A stretch of 34,093 bases of DNA, taken from assembly GCA_028694795.1 (NCBI GenBank), contig JAQVKF010000017.1, forward strand, positions 1-34,093. The letters are read 5' to 3'. A program made the translations under genes and the position numbers. The stretch comes from Thermoguttaceae bacterium (GTDB lineage Bacteria; Planctomycetota; Planctomycetia; Pirellulales; Thermoguttaceae). This document shows, one piece after another, positions 14,978 through 34,093 of this stretch. The notes beneath the pieces were generated by a model that was not told the DNA's origin, searched no databases, and worked only from the letters and a program-made list of their open reading frames with translations. Numbering within the stretch: position 1 is the stretch's first letter; every line of letters begins with the position of its first letter.

Positions 14978-15131
14978 TAAATTTCTCCTATCATCGAATT
15001 TGGCATGAGACTTCGAACGAATATAGTAAACACATGTACATCGCATCTGGCGGTAATGCGCCGCTGCGTGTTCATGTTACCGCACGGTTACTCATGGTCC
15101 GCCACGGTCACTTCGTTCCCGGTCCTCACTA

Positions 15132-15201
15132 GGGCGTGTTCACATAAATTGCACCTCCATCGGAGCGACCGGCTGTACCAGCGTCAGGTGAAAAGGGTGA
15201 A
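15132..15201 (-). mobile_element. MITE copy B, one-ended remnant
   Basis: This starts with GGGCGTGTTCACATAA after TA (15130-15131) within CTAG and matches the right half of copy A in reverse up to about 15201 (…gtcaggtgaaaagggtga). It then diverges; the other end is missing. It lies in the 331-bp gap between apgM and metG. Confidence 0.75.
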
Positions 15202-22307: not shown

Positions 22308-22336
22308 CCGACATCAATTGGTCAGACCACATGGTA

Positions 22337-22437
22337 CTTTTTACCCGACGTTGGTACTGCCAACATCTAACAAGAAACACTCCCGGCCCTTCGGGCGGTC
22401 GGGTTGTGGTGATTTTACCTGACGTTGTTACCGCCAC
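22337..22437 (+). repeat. Two solo copies of the short dispersed motif
   Basis: The motif TTTTTACCTGACGTTGGTAC plus TGCCA occurs at 22337-22363 (ctttttacccgacgttggta) and again at 22411-22437 (gattttacctgacgttgtta), on both sides of a GC-rich hairpin. No MITE ends are present. It lies between the convergent host operon and the phage module. Confidence 0.65.
22382..22403. terminator. GC-rich hairpin at the host/phage junction
   Basis: CCCG-GCCC-ttc-GGGC-ggt-CGGG forms a strong stem with a small loop and a bulge, in the 198-bp gap between convergent transcripts. Only short T stretches follow. It may end the malectin-like operon on one side and the phage transcript on the other. Confidence 0.5.
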
Positions 22438-22505
22438 ATCGCTGGTTTACCTTCCCTATTCCAGTCGGTCGATCCCGGATTGAGGACAACTTATGTGAAC
22501 GCTCC

Positions 22506-23357
22506 CTAACTCACGGCGGATTGAAATAGAGCCGAAAAATCGGATATATCGTAAAGTCCATGTCCTTCACAAGTCACACGTTCCCAACTCCCAATCGAAG
22601 GAGACCAAAAATGATTCCAACCAAATGACGTATCCCGATGTCTTAGCCCTCGCTGACGGAATATGTAACGAATCTTCCACGTAAATGCACTCGGACCGGT
22701 CGCAAGATCCGCTCGGTACAATTTATTGCTCTGTATGCCGACAAACAACAACGTTTCCGCCGCGGCTCCCAAAAACGAAGTCTCATTCTCCGTTCCTTGC
22801 AATCGCTGGATCGTATTCCACGGCGGATTTATTACATTACTCCATGTCACACGATGTTCCGTAATCGGAATGACACGAATATAATACGGTCGCTCACTCG
22901 GAGTTGCCGAAGCATTCGCCCCACTCCAACCGCTTGTCGGAATTTTGATCGTCTCGGTATCATATCCCAGCTCATAAGTGATTTGCGACCCAGATTCCGT
23001 GACCGCAACGTCGGAGACATCGGTTAATTCCTCTTGTGATAACACGCCGTAACACACAATCGCCTTGGCAAAAGAGCCTGGATAAGTGTTCAAATCTTGT
23101 GATATTGCGGTAAATCGCCGAACTTCCGGACGATCACCGCTAATCGGTTCCAATCGAAGTTGCGTCGCCACAATCGACGATTTTCCAGGATAAATCGCGG
23201 GACCGTTCTCCTGATTCCTACTCGCTAAGCCTAAAACTTCACACGCAAAGGCATCTCGATCACTCCACGGAATCACAAACGTCCGCTCCGCATAAAAACC
23301 GTCCGGACCATAATTTTCTATCGGAGAACCAGATAGTTCCGCGAACATGACACTCAT
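22506..23357 (-). CDS. Last gene of phage module, unassigned structural candidate
   Basis: 283 residues, family not recognised. GAGGAG eight bases before the ATG at 23357 fixes the start. The protein is beta-rich with many aromatic residues, with no signal peptide or membrane segment. The C-terminal 60 residues (KIRYIFRQRGLRHRDTSFG and WNHFWSPSIGSWERV) are rich in Trp and Arg. By position it is the distal gene of a head-gene transcript, where head-completion, neck or spike proteins are usual, but nothing in the sequence proves such a role. Two solo repeat motifs and a hairpin follow its stop. MITE copy D lies 77 bp upstream of its start codon, so D sits in its leader region. Confidence 0.6.
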   Translation of the reverse strand: MSVMFAELSGSPIENYGPDGFYAERTFVIPWSDRDAFACEVLGLASRNQENGPAIYPGKSSIVATQLRLEPISGDRPEVRRFTAISQDLNTYPGSFAKAIVCYGVLSQEELTDVSDVAVTESGSQITYELGYDTETIKIPTSGWSGANASATPSERPYYIRVIPITEHRVTWSNVINPPWNTIQRLQGTENETSFLGAAAETLLFVGIQSNKLYRADLATGPSAFTWKIRYIFRQRGLRHRDTSFGWNHFWSPSIGSWERVTCEGHGLYDISDFSALFQSAVS

Positions 23358-23433
23358 ATCATACTCCTCTATAGATTTTATGTTCAGATATTTATCTAGC
23401 CTTAACCGCTCGTACCAACGCGAATTCCGACCA

Positions 23434-23633
23434 GGGCGTGTTCACATAAGTTGCACCTTAATCGGAGCGACCGTCTGTACCAGCGTCAGGTAAAAAGTTT
23501 CCCCTCAAGCTCCTTTTCCAAAACTTTTTACTAGACGCACAAACTTCAATATCAACCGACATAAACCACCCCGATTGCTATTATTTCGTTCTTGGCTATC
23601 GGTTTTATCATGTGATTATATGTGAACACGCCC
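23434..23633 (-). mobile_element. MITE copy D, 200 bp, module 1 only
   Basis: Ends GGGCGTGTTCACATAA and TATGTGAACACGCCC are near-perfect inverses. TA follows on the right (634-635 of this kilobase), but CA stands on the left, so one flank has mutated or the duplication is not intact. The element reads in reverse relative to copy A and carries the purine-rich module 1 but not module 2. It lies between two phage genes. Confidence 0.85.
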
Positions 23634-23723
23634 TAAAAATACGACATTTTTGTCCTTGGCAAAAAGCCATGTACAATAAAATCGCGATGGTCCGTACTCA
23701 ATCAAAGGAAATGGTTTCTGGGA

Positions 23724-24347
23724 TCACTGCACAAAACTCGAAATCGTTTCTCCAGAACTTGTCGTTCCACCCTCATCGGTGGAAGAAGTCGCTTCATTCG
23801 AGGTCGTACCACCTGTCGAATCGCCCGAATCCGCATTCCAACCGGGTGAGGTTCCCAGAATGGCGATATCAAATAAGACGTCGTTGCCATTCGCCGTTAA
23901 TTTAATTTTTTTCGCCGTCGAATCGACACTCCACCCGGTTCCGAAATTCGCCAACAACAGCGGTGTGCCAGGCTCAATATTCAACGCATCACCAGCTAAC
24001 GCGAATGGACCTGTCCATGGTGTCAAAACTTCACTACTAATGTTCAAAACACCTGTATTTGAACGATTGTACAGATATAAAAGTTTTACCGCCCCCAATG
24101 TAAACGTCACATTACGACCGAAAATCAATTGGGCCAACGAGGTTAGATCATACGTCACGCTCGCATCTTTACAAAGCGTTTGAGATTCTAAATACCACGC
24201 AATATCAACATCCGGTAATGTTGATGGAGCCAAACTGTCACGTCGAAAACTAAGTTTCGTCGAATCTGTCACACGACGAGATATACTAGTGTCCATCCAC
24301 GTCCAACCACACTCCATACGTGTTAAAATATCTAATCGTGTCGCCAT
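23724..24347 (-). CDS. Phage-module protein with Ser/Thr/Gly-rich tail
   Basis: 207 residues, family not recognised. AAAGGAA before the ATG at 24347 gives a suitable start. Residues 1-170 look like a compact beta-rich domain (SVTYDLTSLAQLIFGRNVTF, TLGAVKLLYLYNRSNTGV, TPLLLANFGTGWSVD). The last 35 residues are a flexible acidic Ser/Thr/Gly tail (DSGDSTGGTTSNEATSSTDE). Such tails occur on exposed virion proteins, but this is only suggestive. It is flanked by MITE D downstream and, beyond 219 bp, MITE E upstream, so its transcription from the upstream phage genes must pass through element E. Confidence 0.6.
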   Translation of the reverse strand: MATRLDILTRMECGWTWMDTSISRRVTDSTKLSFRRDSLAPSTLPDVDIAWYLESQTLCKDASVTYDLTSLAQLIFGRNVTFTLGAVKLLYLYNRSNTGVLNISSEVLTPWTGPFALAGDALNIEPGTPLLLANFGTGWSVDSTAKKIKLTANGNDVLFDIAILGTSPGWNADSGDSTGGTTSNEATSSTDEGGTTSSGETISSFVQ

Positions 24348-24405
24348 AAAATATTTCCTTTATATGCTTCCCTTTGAATTTACGCCGTATATTTGCGATC
24401 TTTTC

Positions 24406-24430
24406 CATGACCAAACCATGCTTGGTCGTG
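24406..24430. other. Hairpin upstream of the 207-residue phage gene
   Basis: CATGACCAA and TTGGTCGTG form a 9-bp stem (one G-T wobble) with a 7-base loop, 59 bp upstream of the start at 24347. It could be a leader hairpin or a processing site. The rest of 24348-24566 shows nothing recognisable. Confidence 0.35.
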
Positions 24431-24566
24431 TCTAATCAGGGTCCATAGTTCGACTTTTGAATCCCGCTTTTGCCCAATTGAAAATCTTAATTTTGGATCA
24501 ATATCACTGATCGACGGGGAACATCGTCAGGAAAAATCCGGTCGTATAAACCACTCCAAGCGTCTA

Positions 24567-24768
24567 GGGCGTGTTCACATAGAATCACATAGTAAAAACC
24601 GATAGCTAAGAATGAAATGACCGCAATCGGTGCGGTTTATGTCGGTTGATATTGAGGTTTATGCGTCTGGTAAAAAGTTTTGGAAGGGGAATTTGAGGGG
24701 AAACTTTTTACCTGACGCTGGTACAGATGGTCGCTCCGATTAAGGTGGCAACTTGTGTGAACACACCC
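24567..24768 (+). mobile_element. MITE copy E, 202 bp, module 1 only, in a stop codon
   Basis: Ends GGGCGTGTTCACAT and TTGTGTGAACACACCC are flanked by TA on both sides (24565-24566 and 24769-24770). It carries module 1 (ttggaaggggaatttgagg), bordered by GTAAAAAGTTTT and AAACTTTTTAC, which are inverse to each other. Its right end supplies the last base of the TAG stop codon of the neighbouring phage gene. Confidence 0.9.
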
Positions 24769-25208
24769 TAGATGCCAGGAAATTTCAAGACACGGACTCG
24801 CATCGTCATACACCAGACCCAAGTGCCATCACTCTGTTGATTCGAATCGTTTTCCAGTATCTCACTTCGAAGCCATAGTGTCCCTTGCAATCTGCCCGCG
24901 GAGTCCGTCACTTGCCACATCGCCGCATCAAACAGTTCACACAACGTGGTAACGAGTTCTGAAGAGCTAAGGTAATGTCGATGGTAAATCTCCAATACAA
25001 AATAGACATCTTCTATATTAACACCCGTATTCGTCACCAAATACGGACGCGCATTCTTTCGTAATACCGATATGTATGGCGGATGACGATGAATCGGATA
25101 ACCGGTAAAAATCAATTCCGGACTCAACAAACGGAGCAACTCGCTACTCGCCGCACATCGCGCATGAACTGCCGATTCCACCACGCTCGCTCTATCTTGA
25201 TCCGACAT
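24768..25208 (-). CDS. Phage-module protein, unassigned (head-tail joining candidate)
   Basis: 146 residues from the ATG at 25208 (MSDQDRASVVESAVH), which has GAGGAA about 7 bases upstream. The frame is open 27 codons further, but that would overlap the preceding gene. The family is not recognised. The sequence alternates helices and strands (YISVLRKNARPYLVTNTGVN, VYFVLEIYHRHYLSSSELV, GTLWLRSEIL) and ends VRVLKFPGI. Size and position after capsid genes suit a head-completion or connector-type protein, by analogy only. The TAG stop consists of the TA target site plus the first G of MITE copy E. Joining the flanks without the element would still give TAG, so the reading frame end is unchanged by the insertion. 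Confidence 0.65.
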   Translation of the reverse strand: MSDQDRASVVESAVHARCAASSELLRLLSPELIFTGYPIHRHPPYISVLRKNARPYLVTNTGVNIEDVYFVLEIYHRHYLSSSELVTTLCELFDAAMWQVTDSAGRLQGTLWLRSEILENDSNQQSDGTWVWCMTMRVRVLKFPGI

Positions 25209-25263
25209 AAAAAATTCCTCTAAACCGGTGATTTTCCTTATTTCCTCGTTGCTCAAAACTTGA

Positions 25264-25899
25264 TCACAGCGAACGCTCGCACTCCGCATCCAGTTCCACT
25301 AAACCTGGAAAATGCGATGGCAATTGGAATGAACATACTGTAAAAATATTCTCTGTCGCATTGCGAAGACGATGCACTTTCGGCGAAAAATTCTCGCAAA
25401 GAAGAAGTATTTGTACACTGATATTTCCCTGCATTTTGTCATCCGAGCTGGTCACTCGCGGAATCACAGTACCACGTACTCCTGTCAAAAACGCCTGCCA
25501 AGCGATCAATTGTGCTCCAGACGCGTCTTTCGTGAAACTCGGCACTTCTAACGTAAAAATCTCCTCAAACAACGTGGACATCTTTTCATTCCGCGTCGTC
25601 AAGAGCCAGCGGTCTAAACGCTGCTTCACATACAGCACCGTCCAAACGCCACGCTCGCCATCTTCCAACAGATCACCCACACGAGGGGGATCACCGCTCT
25701 CGCTTAGCGGGATCTGCCACTGCATCATCCCCGTCAATCGATACGCATTCTTCTCATTCGAAAGGTAATCATTCGCATAAGAGGTCCGAATGGCCCGCGT
25801 GATCGGCACTGAATCGCCACCTCCGCGATGCCAGGTCACCGGAATAAAACCGTCCACTATCCGCGAAAAGTCGCCTGAAAAAATCGCCGTCTCTGACAT
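25264..25899 (-). CDS. Phage-module protein, unassigned
   Basis: 211 residues. GAGG about 8 bases before the ATG at 25899 supports the start. No family is recognised. The protein opens MSETAIFSGDFSRIVDG. Its middle has a beta-type stretch (RGVWTVLYVKQRLDRWLL) with the feel of head-closure or baseplate-type small domains, but that is not proof. The C-terminal half is also beta-rich (NISVQILLLCENFSPK, IFTVCSFQLPSHF). There is no membrane or signal segment. It ends 55 bp before the start of the following 146-residue gene, so the two are probably cotranslated from one transcript. MITE copy F lies 82 bp upstream of its start. Confidence 0.65.
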   Translation of the reverse strand: MSETAIFSGDFSRIVDGFIPVTWHRGGGDSVPITRAIRTSYANDYLSNEKNAYRLTGMMQWQIPLSESGDPPRVGDLLEDGERGVWTVLYVKQRLDRWLLTTRNEKMSTLFEEIFTLEVPSFTKDASGAQLIAWQAFLTGVRGTVIPRVTSSDDKMQGNISVQILLLCENFSPKVHRLRNATENIFTVCSFQLPSHFPGLVELDAECERSL

Positions 25900-25981
25900 C
25901 TTTAAGCCTCACACTCCATCGCTTGTCAAATATTATATCCCAATACTCCGATCTAGCCCGTACGCATAGCGGGTTTTACTA

Positions 25982-26221
25982 GGGCGTGTTCACATATAAT
26001 CACATGGTAAAAACCATGGCCAAGAATGAATGACCGCAATCGGAGTGGTTTACGTTGGTTGATATTGAAGTTTGCGCGTCTAGTAAAAAGTTTCCTCTCA
26101 TGGGTTTTTCGCCCCAAAAAAGTTTTACGAAAAAACATTTTCGTAGAAAATGCGCAACTTTTTACCTGACGCTGGTACAGACATTGCTTCGATTGGGGTG
26201 GCAACTTGTGTGAACACGCAC
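25982..26221 (+). mobile_element. MITE copy F, 240 bp, module 2 only
   Basis: Flanked by TA (25980-25981 and 26222-26223). Ends are GGGCGTGTTCACATA and TGTGTGAACACGCAC. It carries module 2, with tcatgggtttttcg and the hairpin cattttcgtagaaaatg, and lacks module 1. It is nearly identical to copy G but in the opposite direction. An open frame through it encodes a peptide like one in copy G, which follows from the DNA identity and is not counted as a gene. Confidence 0.9.
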
Positions 26222-26316
26222 TAGATGATTGTACAAATAACATGCTCGCGAACACATAGCACAAAGGTAATTCCCATTCGCTTCGTTGGAAAGGAACGCT
26301 ATGAATCTATTCCGTA

Positions 26317-26529
26317 TCATGTCGAACCATACGAATGAATCTCATATGGCTGCGATTGAGACAGCTTCGTATCGCACCAATCAATGATCTTTTGAAGCTG
26401 TCCCAAATAGTCCGTCCACGAAACACTCTGACCCTCTAGCGTGTAACTCGGCTTCGGACTAAGCGTGATCTCCTCCATATTGTTCATCGCCTGTAAACGA
26501 ATCTGACGGATCTGCAAAACGTCGTCCAT
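26317..26529 (-). CDS. Small phage-module protein, 70 residues
   Basis: GAGGAGG seven bases before the ATG at 26529 is one of the best ribosome sites in the window. The protein begins MDDVLQIRQIRLQAM and ends in a helix rich in Gln and Trp (SWTDYLGQLQKIIDWCDTKL) followed by QPYEIHSYGST. The family is not recognised; size and position suggest a small structural or assembly protein. It lies alone between two oppositely oriented MITEs (F and G), about 95 and 125 bp away, so the whole gene sits in the loop of a 240-bp inverted repeat. Confidence 0.7.
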   Translation of the reverse strand: MDDVLQIRQIRLQAMNNMEEITLSPKPSYTLEGQSVSWTDYLGQLQKIIDWCDTKLSQSQPYEIHSYGST

Positions 26530-26654
26530 CGTATCCTCCTCACGTTCAAAATATCCCCAAATTTTTCTTCAAAAAAGACCAACTCGAATCAAACGTCGCT
26601 TCGTTGTGATCCGAAACGTTGTCCCATTCCATCCAAAAGATGAAAAAATATCTA

Positions 26655-26893
26655 GTGCGTGTTCACACAAGTTGCCACCCCAATCAAAGCAATGTCTGTA
26701 CCAGCGTCAGGTAAAAAGTTGCGCATTTTCTACGAAAATGTTTTTTCGTAAAACTTTTTTGGGGCGAAAAACCCATGGGAGGAAACTTTTTACTAGACGC
26801 GCAAACTTCAATATCAACCAACGTAAACCACCCCGATTGCGGTCATTCATTCTTGGCCATGGTTTTTACCATGTAATTATATGTGAACACGCC
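26655..26893 (-). mobile_element. MITE copy G, about 239 bp, module 2 only
   Basis: An inverse, almost identical copy of F (only scattered base differences seen by eye). The left end GTGCGTGTTCACACAA follows TCTA; the right end GTGAACACGCC is followed by ATCTA, so the exact right boundary is uncertain by three bases. The TA on the right is part of the TAG stop codon of the next phage gene (stop at 26896-26898). Confidence 0.88.
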
Positions 26894-26895
26894 AT

Positions 26896-27300
26896 CTAAA
26901 TCGCGTTTACTCGAAAACGCACCATAAATAAAATACCCATCTGCGAACGTATTTGGTACTCCACTAAATAATTCCGACCCGCCGCCGAAAACGGTTCGCT
27001 CTCGCTCGTCGGTAACGTGTGACGGAAATTGTAACCCACCGCATCACTCTTCCACGCTCCATCCGTTTGCAACGTATCAAAAAACGTTGATGAAATGTCC
27101 ACCATATTCGAAGCGTGACCGGATACCACCGCTCGGAAATCTGGACGCTGTGCATCTAATTCGTAAACACTGTACCGAATCGAAGCAATTTGAGACGACA
27201 CGAGGACCATTTCTTTCTCGTCCGCAATTCTCGCCATAAACACCGCCGATGCTTGTTTGAATACGGTCCCTAATATGTCGTGCGCTGAAGATAATGCCAC
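26896..27300 (-). CDS. Phage-module protein, unassigned, GTG start
   Basis: 134 residues beginning at a GTG (27298-27300) with GAGGAG seven bases upstream, so the start is well supported although not ATG. No family is recognised. The N-terminal part is helical (SSAHDILGTVFKQASAVFMA). The middle contains DFRAVVSGHASNMVDISSTF. The end, YNFRHTLPTSESEPF followed by YLVEYQIRSQMGILFMVRFRV, reads as paired beta-strands, as in small virion proteins. Position directly after the major capsid gene suits a head-completion role, by analogy only. The TAG stop includes the TA at which MITE copy G is inserted. Confidence 0.65.
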   Translation of the reverse strand: MALSSAHDILGTVFKQASAVFMARIADEKEMVLVSSQIASIRYSVYELDAQRPDFRAVVSGHASNMVDISSTFFDTLQTDGAWKSDAVGYNFRHTLPTSESEPFSAAGRNYLVEYQIRSQMGILFMVRFRVNAI

Positions 27301-27592
27301 GTCTGATCTCCTCTACTTTTTTTGTTTTTTTCAATATCAATCAAACAGCTATCGCATGCCTGACTAAATGCTCCGCACAAATTTCAGCTGAAAATAACCA
27401 ATTTCAAATGAACAAAAATATTTTCTAACGATGTATTTCTTATTTCATCTATCGATGATCAAAATGGGAGGAACCTTGTAATTTGATAAGAACCCAAAGC
27501 TGTAAACGCTCTCAGAAAGGGTATGGGCAGCGTCGCGGAAACGCCAATGCGTCTAGGATACCAGTGAACTCGCTGCCCGGTATTTCCGACCA
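27301..27592. other. Gap between major capsid gene and next phage gene
   Basis: 292 bp, AT-rich. It contains a perfect 12-bp palindrome TTTCAGCTGAAA at 27382-27393, about 80 bp upstream of the GTG-start gene; it could be a regulator site or be due to chance. No gene is supported here. Confidence 0.4.
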
Positions 27593-28741
27593 TCAGTCTG
27601 TACTCATCACTACGTAACGCGGATTCAAAACCGCCGCCGCCCCGCGCTCACTCGCCTTGAATCGAACCAAAATATCCTGATTGAAGTCCGCCTCGCTCGG
27701 CGCGACCGAATGCGTCACCGTAATCGGCCAGTTCTCCATATAACAAAACGCCTTCCGGAAATTACCCAAAAGCCACGGATGTGATGTGTTATTCGCCACA
27801 GATAATCGACTCAACGCGATACGACTGCTCACCACTTGATAACTCGAAAGCGGATTCGAGGTAATCGTCGTCTGACCACCCGATGTCGAATGAACCTCAG
27901 TCGCACTCATCGTGCGTTTCGCTGTGTGGTAAACTGACGGTAGCACAAACAGCGTATTGGGTTGAATCAACACAGGTTCCTGCGTCGTGGGATCCAAAAT
28001 ATTCGAAAATACCTGCTCTGCCGCGTCCACGCTCGTCCAGTCCGAAAACGCATTCGACCCCAATTTATTCGCCCACGGCCCCGATTCACTCGAACTATAA
28101 TAGGTGTTGTACGATGTTCCGTTCCATTTGTAACTGTTCGTAATGCCAAATAGTATGTCAATCAGCCGCTTCTCTTTATTCAACCCCAGAATCTCGCCGA
28201 CCTCCGCCGCTCGAGACAAAACCAAATTCGTCTGGTCAAAAAATACCGCCTCTCGCGTCACTGGTACAATCAGCCCTCGCTTCGTCGTCTTCGGCGTCTC
28301 AATGTAATCCTCGCCAAAACCCACATTGTGGTACGGCATCCCTGGAGCAACTTCCGCCGCGTCATCCGGAATACGGCCCACTCCGGGAATCTTTTCTCCA
28401 TCAAATCGCGTTGGAATCGTCTCAACCAACTTCGACGCCACAAACGTCTCCTGTGTGTACGAATCCAAAATCTTCGAATAAATGACCTGGTTGCTCACGT
28501 TCAAAAACGCCGTCAAATCCACGCCATCGCTTGATTCCAACAACATTGAGCCGCCTCGAGGATTCAAGGTCCGAACCCATTCACGCCCGTCTGGAATCAA
28601 CGACTCGGCTAAATCTCGAAAACTAAAATCCTCGGGACGAAGCTCACGCCGATCCAACGCCTCGCTCAAATGCGAAACCGTACGTTCCGCTCCATCCAAC
28701 TCATAACGACGACGCAATTCTCGATATTTAATCGTTGACAA
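27593..28741 (-). CDS. Phage major capsid protein
   Basis: 382 residues beginning at a TTG codon (28739-28741) with GAGGAG eight or nine bases upstream. The N-terminal 60 residues are charged and helical (YRELRRRYELDGAERTVSHL), like a delta or scaffold segment. The rest has the character of an HK97-fold major capsid protein: YTQETFVASKLVETIPTRFD, then KTTKRGLIVPVTREAVFFDQ, then TLFVLPSVYHTAKRTM, and a C-terminal QDILVRFKASERGAAAVLNP. It forms the icosahedral shell. Order supports the call: terminase, portal, protease and decoration genes lie upstream on the same strand. A 20-bp tandem repeat lies 39 bp before the start. The TTG start may lower translation, or an upstream start was missed, but none fits as well. 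Confidence 0.8.
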   Translation of the reverse strand: MSTIKYRELRRRYELDGAERTVSHLSEALDRRELRPEDFSFRDLAESLIPDGREWVRTLNPRGGSMLLESSDGVDLTAFLNVSNQVIYSKILDSYTQETFVASKLVETIPTRFDGEKIPGVGRIPDDAAEVAPGMPYHNVGFGEDYIETPKTTKRGLIVPVTREAVFFDQTNLVLSRAAEVGEILGLNKEKRLIDILFGITNSYKWNGTSYNTYYSSSESGPWANKLGSNAFSDWTSVDAAEQVFSNILDPTTQEPVLIQPNTLFVLPSVYHTAKRTMSATEVHSTSGGQTTITSNPLSSYQVVSSRIALSRLSVANNTSHPWLLGNFRKAFCYMENWPITVTHSVAPSEADFNQDILVRFKASERGAAAVLNPRYVVMSTD

Positions 28742-28780
28742 TAGTTCTCTCCTCGATCATACTTATGCATCAATGCCCCA

Positions 28781-28820
28781 TCTTCTGATAAGTATATAAA
28801 TCTTCAGATAGGTATACAAA
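28781..28820. promoter_or_regulatory. Tandem 20-bp repeat upstream of major capsid gene
   Basis: Two direct units, tcttctgataagtatataaa (28781-28800) and tcttcagataggtatacaaa (28801-28820), match at 17 of 20 positions and end 39 bp from the capsid start. A period of 20 bp is about two helical turns, so a regulator could bind both on one DNA face. A near-palindrome GCATTGATGC lies between them and the gene. The role is inferred. Confidence 0.45.
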
Positions 28821-28997
28821 ATCGATAAAATACTTCAGCAAAATGGGTACCCACCACATTAACTTCCATCGTGGAATCCACTTTTTCATCCGGGGACTAA
28901 GTCACTCAACGGCCCCAAATTGAACTCCATTGGCAAACATTCCAATCAGAATCGGTCTCATGCCCTGTCGTAAAAAACATCTTCGACCACGATCCGA

Positions 28998-29453
28998 CTA
29001 AACACCACCCTGGACCACCTTCGACCAAACGTCGCACAGCACACTCGTCGTCGTACTGCTGTAATGTCGCACCGCGCGACCAATCGCTCCTGTACTGCCC
29101 GACAATTTCACCAATTTCTGGTCTTCCAGTAAATTACTTGACGTATTCGGCGCAATGTAACTACCAATCGTAAACGTGTTATCCACACACTCGTACTCAA
29201 ATACCCCTCGCGTCGCCACTCGAATCGGCGTCGTATCGCCCACGCGGCTCTTCTGCATCGCAATTCCTAAAAATTTTCCTTGAAATCCACTCTGTGTCGT
29301 CGAGGCGTCCGTCGTCCAAGCATAAGAAGACGCCGGTTTCGCATCGTCCGTATCCAACCACAATAAATCGCCAATCTCAATTTCCGTCGCAGAGTCCACC
29401 GGTGCAATCACTGGATTCGTATCCCCATAACGCCATCGCATTCGATCACTCAT
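28998..29453 (-). CDS. Capsid decoration-like protein
   Basis: 151 residues from the ATG at 29453 (MSDRMRWRYGD), with GAGGAAG about nine bases upstream; a longer frame to 29486 exists but lacks this site. The sequence is beta-rich: NPVIAPVDSATEIEIGDLLW, then GKFLGIAMQKSRVG, then PIRVATRGVFEYECVDNTF, GSYIAPNTSSNLL and VLCDVWSKVVQGG. This is the layout of DUF2190-type and other small head-decoration proteins that stabilise capsid surfaces. It lies between protease and capsid genes, the usual place for such a protein. A 256-bp gap with a tandem repeat separates it from the capsid gene. It could also be another small head protein. Confidence 0.65.
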   Translation of the reverse strand: MSDRMRWRYGDTNPVIAPVDSATEIEIGDLLWLDTDDAKPASSYAWTTDASTTQSGFQGKFLGIAMQKSRVGDTTPIRVATRGVFEYECVDNTFTIGSYIAPNTSSNLLEDQKLVKLSGSTGAIGRAVRHYSSTTTSVLCDVWSKVVQGGV

Positions 29454-29542
29454 CTTCGCTCTTCCTCTCTTGAAATTTCGTCTCACTCTTCCTATAGATT
29501 ATCTGTTCACTTCCTCGATTGTCAGCTTCGGAAAAATTCCAC

Positions 29543-30694
29543 TCAGTTCTTCTTGATCTCTTCAATAAAATGGCTTACACTCTCCAGCTCACCCGGCTCC
29601 TCACGCAACGATAAACGCCTCTGTTCCATCAGCCGAACACGATCCAATATCAACGCACGAATCGTGTATTCATCCTCCGCCTCATAAAGCGTTTTCAAAA
29701 ATATCTCCGACACCATCAACTGGCCATATGCATCATCCGACAACGGAATCGAAAGTCCTTGTTCCTGTAATAACTCGCGAATGCAAAGCTCACGATCTTT
29801 TCGGCATATCTCCTTTCGAAGCAAATGAAGCTCCCCCTCCACTCGCTTACGCGATGCCTCGCTCTCCTCAAAACGCTGACGTAAACTACGATACGAACGC
29901 TTACCTCGCGAATTTTCTTCGTCACTCAACGACTTCAAAGAACAAGACTTCGCCAAAGCTCCATCCGTCATCGGAAGAACGGTCTCTTCCCCGTGCTCAT
30001 CACCTTCCAATAAATTGGTTTCGCCATCCAATCGCAAATCCGCACATTCCAACAAACCACGCCGCTCATAGGGGCCGCAATGAGTAGTTGCCCACTCAAA
30101 GGATTCCGGTTCACGTTCTTCGACGTCCAGTTCCGAAGCCGCCAGCCGCAGTTGCGTTGAAGCCAAGGGTGTTGAATCGGACTGTGTAGACACAGATTGC
30201 ACCAAAGTTTCATTTTGAGACTCGAACAGACCTCGCGTCGTCGCAGGATCCGCCACCAAATCCACACCCAACACCTTCATGATCTTTTGTACTACCACAC
30301 CCTGCTCATCGTGCGAGGTTTCCGCCTCCACATGATGCGAAAAACCTACGTTTTCAGGTGCATGTTCCGCGTCCCACAACAATTGCTCCGCCAACGGATG
30401 TTTGGGATTGTAATGGAAATCCGCAAAAAGCCCCATGTCTGGACGGTATTGGACCCCGTGAAGTACGCCAATCCGATCTCGGTAGTCTCGCGGATGTTCG
30501 CCTGATTCCACGTGGTTGATGTTCACCTTCGCATTCTCATAAAGCGATACAGATTCCGATAAACAATTTTCCGTATATCGACGTCCATTACGCGAATAAA
30601 AACCCAGTACCTTTACGCCATGTAATATCCCTCGCGAACGATCTATCCGAAACTCTCCCGCTCGCGAAAAGGCATATTCGTACATATTCTCCAT
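29543..30694 (-). CDS. Prohead protease fused to scaffold-like region
   Basis: 384 residues from the ATG at 30694, which has GAGG five or six bases upstream; a start at 30709 is also open. The N-terminal 160 residues look like a head-maturation serine protease: VNINHVESGEH with His61, then NVGFSHHVEAE with Ser119, then KVLGVDLVADPATTRGLFES, a layout known from S78/T4 gp21-like proteases. The middle is acidic and low in order. Residues about 275-375 are a charged coiled coil (SYRSLRQRFEESEASRKRVE, LRKEICRKDREL), as in scaffold or delta domains. Such fusions cleave the scaffold and capsid tails during maturation. It lies between the portal and decoration genes, as expected. The catalytic residues are inferred from motif spacing. 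Confidence 0.75.
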   Translation of the reverse strand: MENMYEYAFSRAGEFRIDRSRGILHGVKVLGFYSRNGRRYTENCLSESVSLYENAKVNINHVESGEHPRDYRDRIGVLHGVQYRPDMGLFADFHYNPKHPLAEQLLWDAEHAPENVGFSHHVEAETSHDEQGVVVQKIMKVLGVDLVADPATTRGLFESQNETLVQSVSTQSDSTPLASTQLRLAASELDVEEREPESFEWATTHCGPYERRGLLECADLRLDGETNLLEGDEHGEETVLPMTDGALAKSCSLKSLSDEENSRGKRSYRSLRQRFEESEASRKRVEGELHLLRKEICRKDRELCIRELLQEQGLSIPLSDDAYGQLMVSEIFLKTLYEAEDEYTIRALILDRVRLMEQRRLSLREEPGELESVSHFIEEIKKN

Positions 30695-30868
30695 TTTGAC
30701 CTCTTTCATGTTGATGTTTCGGGAATCTTATCGACTCCATCCGTTTTTCGAATGTCTCACCCTCGAAATGCAAAGGCTATGTACGCTATCATTCCCCAAA
30801 AAGAATCGTCGCCTCGCTTCCACTGTCTCGAAACGCTCGAAAAGGTTTGAAATTCTTCCACGATACCT

Positions 30869-31054
30869 CTATTTACAAGTTTGCTCAATTCGACGACGGT
30901 AACTTTGGATCGTACCGTCCTGCACCGCAAACTCAATCTGTACCGAACCAAAGAAACCTCGTTCCAATGTCTCCTCGTAAATTTTGCGAAGCATTGACTC
31001 GATCCGCTCTATTTTCTCCTGATTCGTATTTGTTTCCCTCAGTTTTACGCTCAT
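30869..31054 (-). CDS. Small DUF2292-like protein in phage module
   Basis: 61 residues from the ATG at 31054; a TTG at 31066 adds four residues and neither has a strong ribosome site. The N-terminal half is a helix (NQEKIERIESMLRKIYEETL). The C-terminal half, FGSVQIEFAVQDGTIQSYRR, matches the pattern of DUF2292 (YezF-like) small proteins, where a GSV-I-VQDG-V strand pair ends near a basic tail. Their function is not established, although they are often near phage genes or stand alone. It sits between portal and protease genes on the same strand, which argues for a phage role. Confidence 0.6.
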   Translation of the reverse strand: MSVKLRETNTNQEKIERIESMLRKIYEETLERGFFGSVQIEFAVQDGTIQSYRRRIEQTCK

Positions 31055-31167
31055 CGTTGTATCCAATCACATGGTTCAATTAAAAGGATTTTTTAAAAAT
31101 GTTTTATTTGTACATGCATATACAAATATATCTTATCTATTTTCGGTCACGATATGACCGAATGTTC

Positions 31168-32472
31168 TCAAGACTCCTTCTCCGGATCAATACCATGTCG
31201 CAATGCCATCGTCTGCGGTGAAAGTACCCCGCAACGCAACAAAATCTCATCCGCCTGGGCTTCCTGCAAACGATTACGTACTACTAAGTTCGGTGGAACA
31301 CACAATAAACGTATCCGCGATAATGCCTCTCGCGGAAGACGACCCGCTCGTACCGCATGCGAAATCACACGACGGAATATCCGCGTGTCCTCCTCCACCA
31401 TTTCCTGCTGCAATCGCTGGAATGTCCGAACACACGGCCCCTCCGCCACCATCGTTGAGGAATAATTCGCATTCGACGCATCACTCGTCAGCATAAACTC
31501 CGGCATCACTAAACGGGACGCTACCGCTCGAAGCTCCGCTTGCAAAATCGATACAAAACTGCTCGCGTCAATCGTGGAGGCCGGAAACTCGTACTCCACA
31601 CCGGAAGACGCATCCAATATCGTGCCGGGTGAATAACGACGATACGAATGTACCTGACCACTTGCGTCCACCATGTTGGCATTTGCCTCATTTTGCACAA
31701 ATTGGCGCACCGTACTCGGATTTCCCTGCGTGTGTTTCCGAATAATCGCTATCGCCGACTGAACGCCGGCTACCACGCTCATGTTCCTTAGAATCTTCTC
31801 CGCACGCTGCAAATTCTTCATCACCGGATAAAATAACGGCACGCCTCGCTTCATTGACTCGTCTACGTTCGCCTTTCGATGCTGTATCGACGTCGATGAC
31901 ACTAACTCACCCTTCACAAAATAACCGCGGACTAGCTCCGGATCGTGACTCGCTGTCCAGACCCCAAAACTACTGTCCGGATCTGACGCCCGCTCCGGCG
32001 GTGTACGCACTTGTGATGGCTCCACAAATCGCACTCGAACGATCCCATCAGGCTCCTCGAAAAAACGCAAAAACGCCTCGCCATCTCGGTCCATGCGCCG
32101 CACGATCTCCTGCTGACGTCGATACCAGTGATTCTCACTCATAAATTCGTCCAACACGCTCTGAACTCGTGACGATAACTCACAGTCCGATTCGCTTCGC
32201 GGAATCACTTTACACGAATAACCAGAACCTACAATGTAACTGATCCGATTCTCATGACCGTTGATCGCAAACTCGTTCGTCATCGCTAACTCACGACACG
32301 CTAAACGCACCTCGTCTAACTCACCCTCCGTTTGCCATGGGATACAACCGTCTCGAAGCGTCCCCGACATGCACGCTCGCCAGTGTCCCGGTGCGTCGTC
32401 GTAAAACTCACTCGGTGGTAATAAATTCCGGAAAAACTCCTCTACGATCTCCCGCATCCCTTGATTCAACAT
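31168..32472 (-). CDS. Phage portal protein
   Basis: 434 residues; GGGGGAG five bases before the ATG at 32472. Portals form the dodecameric ring through which DNA enters the head. The sequence fits a lambda-type portal: an N-terminal wing with NEFAINGHENRISYIVGSGY and a conserved IVRRMDRDGEAFLRFF. The family stretch HRKANVDESMKRGVPLFYPV comes next, followed by a long helix (KNLQRAEKILRNMSVVAGVQ). A glutamine/alanine-rich C-terminal part includes RLVMPEFMLTSDASNANYSS, also usual for portals. No protease domain is fused. It lies 228 bp after the terminase gene; the gap holds a solo dispersed motif at 32521. Confidence 0.85.
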   Translation of the reverse strand: MLNQGMREIVEEFFRNLLPPSEFYDDAPGHWRACMSGTLRDGCIPWQTEGELDEVRLACRELAMTNEFAINGHENRISYIVGSGYSCKVIPRSESDCELSSRVQSVLDEFMSENHWYRRQQEIVRRMDRDGEAFLRFFEEPDGIVRVRFVEPSQVRTPPERASDPDSSFGVWTASHDPELVRGYFVKGELVSSTSIQHRKANVDESMKRGVPLFYPVMKNLQRAEKILRNMSVVAGVQSAIAIIRKHTQGNPSTVRQFVQNEANANMVDASGQVHSYRRYSPGTILDASSGVEYEFPASTIDASSFVSILQAELRAVASRLVMPEFMLTSDASNANYSSTMVAEGPCVRTFQRLQQEMVEEDTRIFRRVISHAVRAGRLPREALSRIRLLCVPPNLVVRNRLQEAQADEILLRCGVLSPQTMALRHGIDPEKES

Positions 32473-32520
32473 GGAATCTCCCCCATCAATGATATTATGT
32501 ATACGTGTACAAAAACGGAC

Positions 32521-32547
32521 ATTTTACCTGTCAGTGGTACTGCCATT
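32521..32547 (+). repeat. Solo copy of the short dispersed motif
   Basis: Reads attttacctgtcagtggtac then tgccatt, close to the motif found in the MITEs and between host genes. It lies between the terminase and portal genes, with no MITE ends nearby. Confidence 0.5.
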
Positions 32548-32700
32548 TCATTCGTTTGCCATCCCGGATCACTTTGTTCGCGGTCAGATTGGAGTGGAAT
32601 ATTGAATGAATATTCGACAAGTGGAGCCTGAAACGATGTAACCACCCCAACGGATCACAGACCGGGCGGTAACAGAAACCCGCCACCGGGCGATCCAAGA

Positions 32701-34093
32701 CTAAAGGGGAAGGCGTGTGCCCAAACCATCGTCTAACCGAGAGACTGGACACTGAAGCTCCGTCGCTAAACGTATTGCCATCTCTAATGCGTCCGGACCA
32801 TCGTCATGATCGCCTAACGGAAATGTACGTAACTGCTCCACCAACAATTGCGAACCTGGAGAACCGCGGCGGAAACGAATCCGACGACCTGATAAAAATG
32901 GACTTAATCGACGAATACGAATCATTTTGTTCACTCGATTCTCGATCATCCACGGATTGGTTGACATCCCCCGACGACCAAACTCTTCCGTAAACAACTC
33001 TGCCAATAACTGCTGAAATTGGTTCGACTCCACGCCAAATGCGTCTGGCCCAAAACTTCGCACCAACTCCACACCCTCCGATATGATCTGATGCGTTGGT
33101 CGCCTCTTCATGTCTGCATCAATATATAAAATCCCACTTGTATCCATCCCCAACATCACAAACGCTGAATAATCGCCGCAACGAGAATCATTCCCCTTAC
33201 TCGGATCTAGCGTTAGCGTCTTCAACCGAAGATCCGTCGGCCATTCGTTAAACCAAATCGTTTCATCAAATAGTTCCTCCGACCACTCGCATTGGTCCGG
33301 ATGAATCGGATGATTCTGCTTCTCTCGCTCAAATGTCGATGCACCACCCTCGCATCGCATTCGCATTAACGTGTATAAACTTTCACGTTCTGGCCACAAC
33401 AACTCCGCTCCGACATCCATTTGGGAACGGTGATCCTCGTAAAACGATAGCGCCCGCTGTGCTGAGTCCGCACGCTCTGCGTCCGAATATAAAGACTCCC
33501 ATTCCTTCCATAACGACATCGCGTCCGGCCAACGGATAATCGACGAAAATGCCCGTGAACGCCAACCTGGCGTGTGCGTCAACTGAATCGAAAGACACTC
33601 CCGATGCAACGCCGTTCCAATGTGAATCAGATTCGTTCGCTCATCACCCGCCTTTAATACCGTTCCCGTAAACCAATTACGTGAACTCTCCCGCAAATCC
33701 GCTGAATAAATGTGCATTTCACTCTGCAAGTCATCGCACACGATCAGCGTCGGACGGTTCGCTCCACTCCGCTTACCTCGAAGCCGTTGTCCACTGCCAA
33801 ACGCCTCGATCACCACCCCATTACGTAAACGCAATATCTGATCTCGCCACACGGGACCTCGACCGAAACTCTCCGGATACACCTTACATAACTCCGGATT
33901 CGATACCATTTGAACACGTATACAGTCTAAATGTGATCGTACCTGTTGCCTCGTATCCGAAAGAATCCATATGTAAGGCTCAAGGCCCTCCAACGCACTA
34001 CGCAACACATACGCTAATGTATTAAGCGTCGATTTCGCCGAACCACGAGGACCTAAAAAATTCAACTTCATCCCTCGACGACTCGAATAACGA
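32701..34093 (-). CDS. Phage terminase large subunit, N-terminus beyond the window
   Basis: At least 464 codons; the frame stays open to the right edge (RYSSRRG before the first internal Met), so the true start lies outside. It packages DNA into the head. The Walker A motif GPRGSAKST is at 34027-34053 and a Walker B-like LIVCDDL follows about 100 residues on, with Asp-Asp in place of the more common Asp-Glu. The C-terminal nuclease part shows LTLDPSKGNDSRCGDYSAF, DAFGVESNQFQQLL and a final HDDGPDALE, the three acidic motifs of terminase nucleases. The visible part lacks only the first adenine-binding segment. It is the first visible gene of the phage transcript. A small terminase subunit, if any, would lie to the right. 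Confidence 0.9.
   Translation of the reverse strand, partial: RYSSRRGMKLNFLGPRGSAKSTLNTLAYVLRSALEGLEPYIWILSDTRQQVRSHLDCIRVQMVSNPELCKVYPESFGRGPVWRDQILRLRNGVVIEAFGSGQRLRGKRSGANRPTLIVCDDLQSEMHIYSADLRESSRNWFTGTVLKAGDERTNLIHIGTALHRECLSIQLTHTPGWRSRAFSSIIRWPDAMSLWKEWESLYSDAERADSAQRALSFYEDHRSQMDVGAELLWPERESLYTLMRMRCEGGASTFEREKQNHPIHPDQCEWSEELFDETIWFNEWPTDLRLKTLTLDPSKGNDSRCGDYSAFVMLGMDTSGILYIDADMKRRPTHQIISEGVELVRSFGPDAFGVESNQFQQLLAELFTEEFGRRGMSTNPWMIENRVNKMIRIRRLSPFLSGRRIRFRRGSPGSQLLVEQLRTFPLGDHDDGPDALEMAIRLATELQCPVSRLDDGLGTRLPL

Follow-up and report, generated by a model that had tools for sequence, protein, structure and literature searches.

A phage-derived head and DNA-packaging module of Pirellulales planctomycetes, probably domesticated and akin to gene transfer agents, with a reduced tail

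The gene transfer agents (GTAs) of Bartonella and Brachyspira (Bartogtaviriformidae and Brachygtaviriformidae) are derived from viruses, encoded by the host and classed as viriforms, and the 2023 viriform framework comprises three GTA families, with no mention of planctomycetes (PMC9953437). The GTA of Caulobacter (CcGTA) is controlled by its host, and its particles have been seen by electron microscopy as heads of ~40 nm on which no tail could be made out (PMC9632790). The capsid-forming phage-inducible chromosomal islands (cf-PICIs), of ~14 kb, are mobile satellites that have their own capsid and packaging genes and a helper phage (PMC10803314). In planctomycetes, the terminase large subunit (TerL) of a Zavarzinella prophage has been placed in a transition zone next to the TerLs that resemble the one of the Rhodobacter capsulatus GTA (RcGTA; Esterman et al. 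2021, PMC7947584). Here, we describe a minus-strand run of phage head and packaging genes in a window of 34,093 bases, which is the entire contig C117 of the draft genome G000 (3.99 Mb, 310 contigs, 89% complete), a metagenome-assembled genome (MAG) of Pirellulales (Planctomycetota), together with its counterparts in 100 sampled relatives from 20 families, the majority of them MAGs. The module suggests a relative of the GTAs that is undescribed and possibly tail-less.

Across these genomes, the predicted packaging-capsid genes are shown to be conserved, under selection and host-fixed, as one module or a few dispersed blocks, with a reduced tail. Their content, order and inheritance make it probable that the Pirellulales have domesticated a phage head and DNA-packaging module and pass it on vertically, in a role like that of a GTA and with a stub tail or no tail. 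With no mobility or replication genes in the module, a role of this kind accounts best for it. The features that it has in common with GTAs are the host-fixed structural and packaging genes, the vertical inheritance with purifying selection, and that no self-mobilisation genes were recognised in G000; the integrase, lysis and full tail genes of an ordinary prophage were not found, the G000 module being flanked by host genes and ending at its distal gene, g1. The more specific proposal, that of a new kind of ancient GTA-like system whose siphovirus-type tail has been dismantled with packaging still selected, so that a particle without a tail, or with a stub of one, would move or store the DNA, is advanced tentatively and given somewhat less than an even chance.

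The likeness to the alphaproteobacterial RcGTA type consists in a host-fixed head and packaging cluster without an integrase, and in the window TerL belonging to the same broad family as the alphaproteobacterial TerLs, at 31-36% identity. However, the RcGTA type has a siphovirus-like tail with a tape measure, whereas the Pirellulales module is without a full tape measure and the lineage of the window is also without a tail tube; moreover, genes for ParB and an ABC/GNAT protein precede the terminase small subunit (TerS) in the module, and the host is of another phylum. A phmmer search of the window capsid against the PDB sequences, GTA particle entries included, gave no match, which leaves room for distant homology, and PDB sequence searches with g1 and TerL gave none either. 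CcGTA encodes a tail tube, a hub/baseplate and fibres, in contrast to the window module, which has no tube. The GTAs of Bartonella and Brachyspira may be likened to the module by their virus-derived, host-encoded nature, with no claim of homology. With the cf-PICIs it shares the possession of its own capsid and packaging genes, but no integrase was recognised in the Pirellulales module and its inheritance is largely vertical. Encapsulins are built of an HK97-type shell protein that is kept by cells and works without portal and terminase, whereas in the Pirellulales module the portal, TerS and TerL are conserved alongside the shell. A literature search, with most subscription papers and preprints outside its coverage, returned no GTA of Pirellulales or Planctomycetota and no account of the module.

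The run of genes in the window reads from 34092 to 22506, TerL first and g1 last, with copies of a repeat that resembles miniature inverted-repeat transposable elements (MITEs) between them:

32701..34092, minus strand: TerL, its 5' end truncated by the contig end; homologues in 229 phage records and in the relatives
31168..32472, minus strand: portal protein; Phage_portal_2 (Pfam), E 1.5e-20; phrog_21, E 1e-37
29543..30709, minus strand: protease/scaffold-position gene, between portal and cement in the relatives too; phrog_29592 (function unknown), E 3e-6
28998..29486, minus strand: cement/decoration protein; Phage_cement_2, E 1.7e-4, just below the cut-off; phrog_122 (head decoration), E 0.006
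27593..28741, minus strand: major capsid protein; Phage_capsid_4, E 3e-13
26896..27300, minus strand: neck7, head-tail connector-position gene, optional among the relatives; same-place homologues
26650..26893: MITE-like repeat copy, intergenic, inverted relative to the copy at 25979..26226
26317..26529, minus strand: sm6, a conserved gene of 70 amino acids (aa); same-place homologues
25979..26226: MITE-like repeat copy, intergenic
25264..25899, minus strand: g4, connector/adaptor-position gene; homologues in relatives and phages
24768..25289, minus strand: g3, tail completion/terminator-like; Tail_completion_gp17, E 3.7e-5, just below the curated cut-off; phage homologues
24565..24769: MITE-like repeat copy, intergenic
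23724..24347, minus strand: g2, beta-sandwich virion-type protein; phrog_22694, E 4e-11; AlphaFold2 (AF2) model with mean pLDDT 74.6
23358..23723, minus strand: gap, the slot of the tail tube in relatives and of tube, chaperone and tape measure in phages; holds a MITE-like copy
23435..23635: MITE-like repeat copy, intergenic
22506..23357, minus strand: g1, last gene of the module, in the Dit position (related phages have it after the tape measure); homologues in phages, E 2e-17 and 2e-25

The preliminary description of this DNA had reported twelve minus-strand genes from the terminase to an unassigned distal gene; the run stands, but its credible genes number 11, since the open reading frame (ORF) at 25953-26264 sits in a MITE and is not counted. 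Its identification of portal, decoration and capsid genes is borne out by the Pfam and PHROG matches, and that of the protease-scaffold gene by position; a protease role for 29543..30709 is suggested by this position and by the conserved N-terminal half. The module end at 22506 faces, as was also described, a convergent plus-strand host operon across the short intergenic region 22308-22505, and the remaining left side of the window consists of host genes, among them those for methionyl-tRNA synthetase, homoserine dehydrogenase and a ROK family protein. The four MITE-like copies are 200-245 bp long, 88-98% identical, and belong to one family that fills four of the module gaps; every module frame is open, so the frames are indeed intact in spite of the insertions. 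The gaps between module genes are mostly 228-458 bp, compared with a median same-strand gap of 8-39 bp in related phages. Copies of the same family lie among host genes at 249-541 and 15128-15195; the family is, therefore, not restricted to the module. For g2, the Foldseek matches of the AF2 model were plant-virus jelly rolls and other beta proteins, all weak (TM by query ~0.21-0.34), and the label of a beta sandwich only was kept; the g1 model (pLDDT 67.9) had no significant Foldseek match, and g1 may be Dit-like from its position. No match was obtained by tblastn with the capsid, g1 and g2 against 50,697 phage records. The named relatives of the window TerL are in MAGs of Pirellulales and Thermoguttaceae and in the cultured Botrimarina hoheduenensis Pla111.

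Contig C117 breaks within the terminase gene, and the rest of the module was found on contig C247, which carries a helix-turn-helix (HTH) gene (143 aa), a ParB-like gene, an ABC-ATPase/GNAT fusion, TerS and, at the contig end, the first 85 codons of TerL; C247 ends in 28 nt that overlap the start of the window minus strand with 27/28 identical positions. The TerS call rests on a copy in a relative (Sf6_terminase, E 6e-6, just below the cut-off). Beyond the HTH gene stand the host genes ffh, trmD and argJ, so that the module measures ~15 kb from ParB to g1 and has host genes at both ends. No integrase, replication or lysis genes were recognised on either side of the module in G000, nor tail genes on C247. 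Accordingly, where the preliminary description had allowed for a prophage whose other half lay to the right, this other half turned out to be packaging genes, read as TerS, ABC/GNAT, ParB and HTH and followed by the host, and not a prophage.

With genes called and tests run by a custom gene caller and scripts, the portal was detected in 75/100 and the capsid in 76/100 relatives, nearly always as one good copy, in comparison with the rpoB control in 97/100; some TerL match was present in 82/100, a count that includes unrelated weak hits, and g1 homologues in 57/100. The capsid identity to the window is 55-68% in the main clade and 26-51% in other orders of the class. The absences follow clades and are not sporadic, affecting the families f5 and f8 and the genera g9, g10, g25 and g32, several f1 genera being among the lineages without the module. 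The order ParB - ABC/GNAT - TerS - TerL recurs in ~60 loci, and after TerL the relatives have the portal, protease, cement, capsid, a variable slot, neck7, sm6, g4, g3, g2, tail tube and g1. Host flanks on the TerL side (Exo_endo_phos, HD_4, MoCF_biosynth, HEAT) are common to f1, f2, f7 and f14, an XRE-type regulator stands at the opposite end in f1, f2, f7, f18 and f19, and an HTH gene is ahead of ParB in many genomes. As to conservation at the same locus, which had been named as a check, the module occurs in most of the relatives, at host loci that are partly common between families. In many genomes, the TerL/portal block is split from the capsid block, lying on other contigs or kb to tens of kb away (G065, G051, G014, G032, G093), as would be expected of long-resident gene sets and not of active prophages. 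The host gene found beside g1 both in the window and in the complete genome G023 was dropped as an indication of synteny because its 30% identity was too weak.

Purifying selection is evident in congeneric pairs, where dN/dS was 0.06-0.23 for TerL, 0.05-0.22 for the portal and 0.035-0.19 for the capsid, mostly 0.06-0.31 for the smaller module genes (one cement value reached 0.40) and 0.02-0.12 for rpoB; the terminase and capsid, whose dN/dS had been named as a check, are both in the purifying range. The synonymous distances of the module are close to those of rpoB in the pairs G020/G048, G030/G053, G004/G058 and G004/G040 (e.g., 0.26-0.37 vs 0.34, and 0.99-1.12 vs 1.03), and exceed them up to ~twofold in G074/G090 and G077/G093. 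The correlation of distances with those of rpoB, the single gene used for the species tree, was 0.70 for the portal, 0.76 for the capsid and 0.45 for TerL, with permutation maxima of 0.45, 0.44 and 0.52, respectively, and 15/32 splits were common to the module gene trees and the rpoB tree, with a chance mean of 0.27 and a maximum of 3. Inheritance is, therefore, mainly vertical with occasional replacement, which the TerL evidence alone would not establish. In 44 sequences, the Walker A and Walker B motifs of TerL and its nuclease aspartates and glutamate are invariant or nearly so; hence selection appears to act on DNA packaging, and this speaks against the use of the capsid as an empty shell.

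The tail presents a different picture. The length of a siphophage tail is set by its tape measure. In the phage relatives the order is terminator, tube (PHROG major tail protein, E 5e-5), a chaperone-position gene, tape measure and g1 homologue, with tape measures of 737 aa (E 5e-19) and 550 aa (E 3e-5), and the distance from tube to g1 is 2447 bp in a phage with a tape measure. This distance is 764-1352 bp in the families f6, f15 and f19, where a chaperone-like gene is present and ORFs of 69-111 aa at most occupy the place of the tape measure, and 17-424 bp in f2, f3, f10, f13 and some f1; most genomes of f1, the family to which the window belongs, have no tube, be it in the module or elsewhere in the genome, and in them, as in the window, g1 follows g2 directly. 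No full tape measure was found between tube and g1 in the main-clade host modules examined, and the tube search matched in 22/100 genomes. The modules of G019 and G052 are also without g2 and g3, and the families f7, f14 and f18 are without g1. Behind the same head, one f14 genome carries another kind of tail tube (Phage_tube_2), so the history of the tail is not uniform. The tail-length machinery has been lost in steps: the tape measure, then the tube, and in some lineages also the terminator. Genome-wide searches for a tail tube (tube alignment A3, Phage_tube_2) had no match in the genome of the window or in the complete genome G023, where the tape-measure profile also had none; a tail encoded elsewhere in G000 was rejected as a candidate, the sole hit of the profile there being to a small segment of a 3014-aa frame (E 5e-6). 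The preliminary statement that no tail genes were visible holds for the tube and tape measure, but not for g3, which resembles Tail_completion_gp17, nor for g1, which is homologous to a phage protein encoded after the tape measure. Because tail length depends on the tape measure, the particles would be expected to bear no more than a stub of a tail.

In the proposed mechanism, the cell would express the module, to which the HTH gene before ParB in many genomes and, in several families, the XRE-type regulator that stands at the end of the module are possible pointers. The capsid would assemble around the portal, and TerS/TerL would pump cellular DNA into it, this cargo being proposed because the module does not itself constitute a mobile genome. 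The connector, the terminator and g1 would seal the head or make up a stub tail, and the filled particle would most likely leave lysed or vesiculating cells and pass its DNA to kin as GTAs do.

Alternatively, the capsid may serve the cell in some other way, for example to store or protect DNA or as a nanocompartment, without intercellular transfer; a head that lacks a tail has no evident means of delivery and tail loss would carry no cost, but TerL, TerS and the portal are under selection with the motor residues intact, which an empty shell would not need, and this use is considered unlikely. A little less likely still are DNA-filled heads that dock onto the tails of co-resident phages, in the manner of capsid-forming satellites. 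Such borrowing would agree with the retention of connector and terminator genes after the loss of tube and tape measure, with the tape-measure-like genes elsewhere in some relatives, and with the cf-PICIs, which form capsids themselves and rely on helper phages (PMC10803314); it is opposed by the lack of a recognised integrase and the largely vertical pattern, by the complete genome G023, which has no module tube and no Phage_tube_2 or tape-measure profile match, and by the loss of the terminator also in G019 and G052. An ordinary or recurrent planctomycete prophage family, partly sampled, is disfavoured and has a slight probability: true phage relatives do exist, second phage-like copies occur in some genomes and TerL has been replaced, but the distribution is single-copy and clade-wise, dS is rpoB-like in several pairs, host flanks are shared with host genes on both sides, the tape measure is missing, and the gaps are long and contain MITEs. 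Least probable, and likewise disfavoured, is a functionless, decaying remnant of an ancient prophage, an option that had been raised at the outset. Stepwise loss of tail genes, MITE insertions, the split portal of G015 and occasional stop codons would suit it, whereas dN/dS is mostly well below 0.3 (in congeneric pairs, mostly 0.04-0.25 for the head genes), almost every relative across an order has intact frames, and the losses fall on the tail and spare the packaging genes.

Several points weigh against the domesticated, GTA-like module. Known GTAs deliver DNA through a tail, whereas the module is without tube and tape measure. Eight strong splits (8) conflict with the rpoB tree, mostly around f6, f10, f12, f13 and f20, and in f10 the TerL has given way to one of phage type and those of f6 and f12 are divergent; inheritance is thus not purely vertical. 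The data are from MAGs and custom gene calls, with which a far-diverged tail locus elsewhere would escape detection, and the particles, their cargo and its transfer are inferred from genes. Of the preliminary suggestion of a domesticated particle such as a GTA, domestication is upheld by the order-wide single copy, the co-divergence with the host, the shared flanks and the scattering of genes; the identity as a GTA, that is, the packaging and transfer of host DNA, is a proposal.

If the reading is true, domesticated virus particles would be extended to another phylum, the described GTA families coming from few lineages, and the graded loss of the tail makes it testable whether a DNA-packaging particle can serve a cell without a tail. 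Such testing is made practical by the cultured Botrimarina hoheduenensis Pla111, which has the module at locus L020, the run ending at g4. Several 'viral' contigs of IMG/VR (L082-L111) carry the host-type module with TerL identity of 50-60% and resemble chromosomal pieces, which suggests that some IMG/VR 'viruses' may be pieces of host chromosomes.

A number of further peculiarities were observed in individual genomes. The portal of G015 is split near residue 88 (L201, G015:C4, 14752-14973 and 3180-4289), with the parts 10 kb apart and other genes between, and that of G013 looks similar, across contigs. Second, more divergent copies of some module genes occur in G073 (C1, L277), G063 (C10, L279) and G078 (C132). 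G036 and G057 contain many C-terminal fragments of TerL (e.g., L061, L065, L071, L072, L078, L081), often starting at contig ends and with varied neighbours, that are either a dispersed repeat with the 3' end of TerL or an effect of assembly. The gene g1 is followed by glycosyltransferases and a sulfotransferase-like gene in L325 and L327, and a CBM96-like protein is encoded after the connector genes/capsid block in L276; these neighbours could possibly serve the surface decoration of a particle. Finally, a parallel, strongly syntenic capsid module was found in f22, a family of another order (L339-L345), in seven (7) genomes of different genera (G165, G196, G125, G304, G133, G236, G162). Its TerL belongs to another family, and it also encodes an ABC/GNAT protein and a protein of 242 aa that matches tape measures (E 8e-8); in G109 and G189, only protease, cement and capsid are still together. 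This module is perhaps a second domestication.

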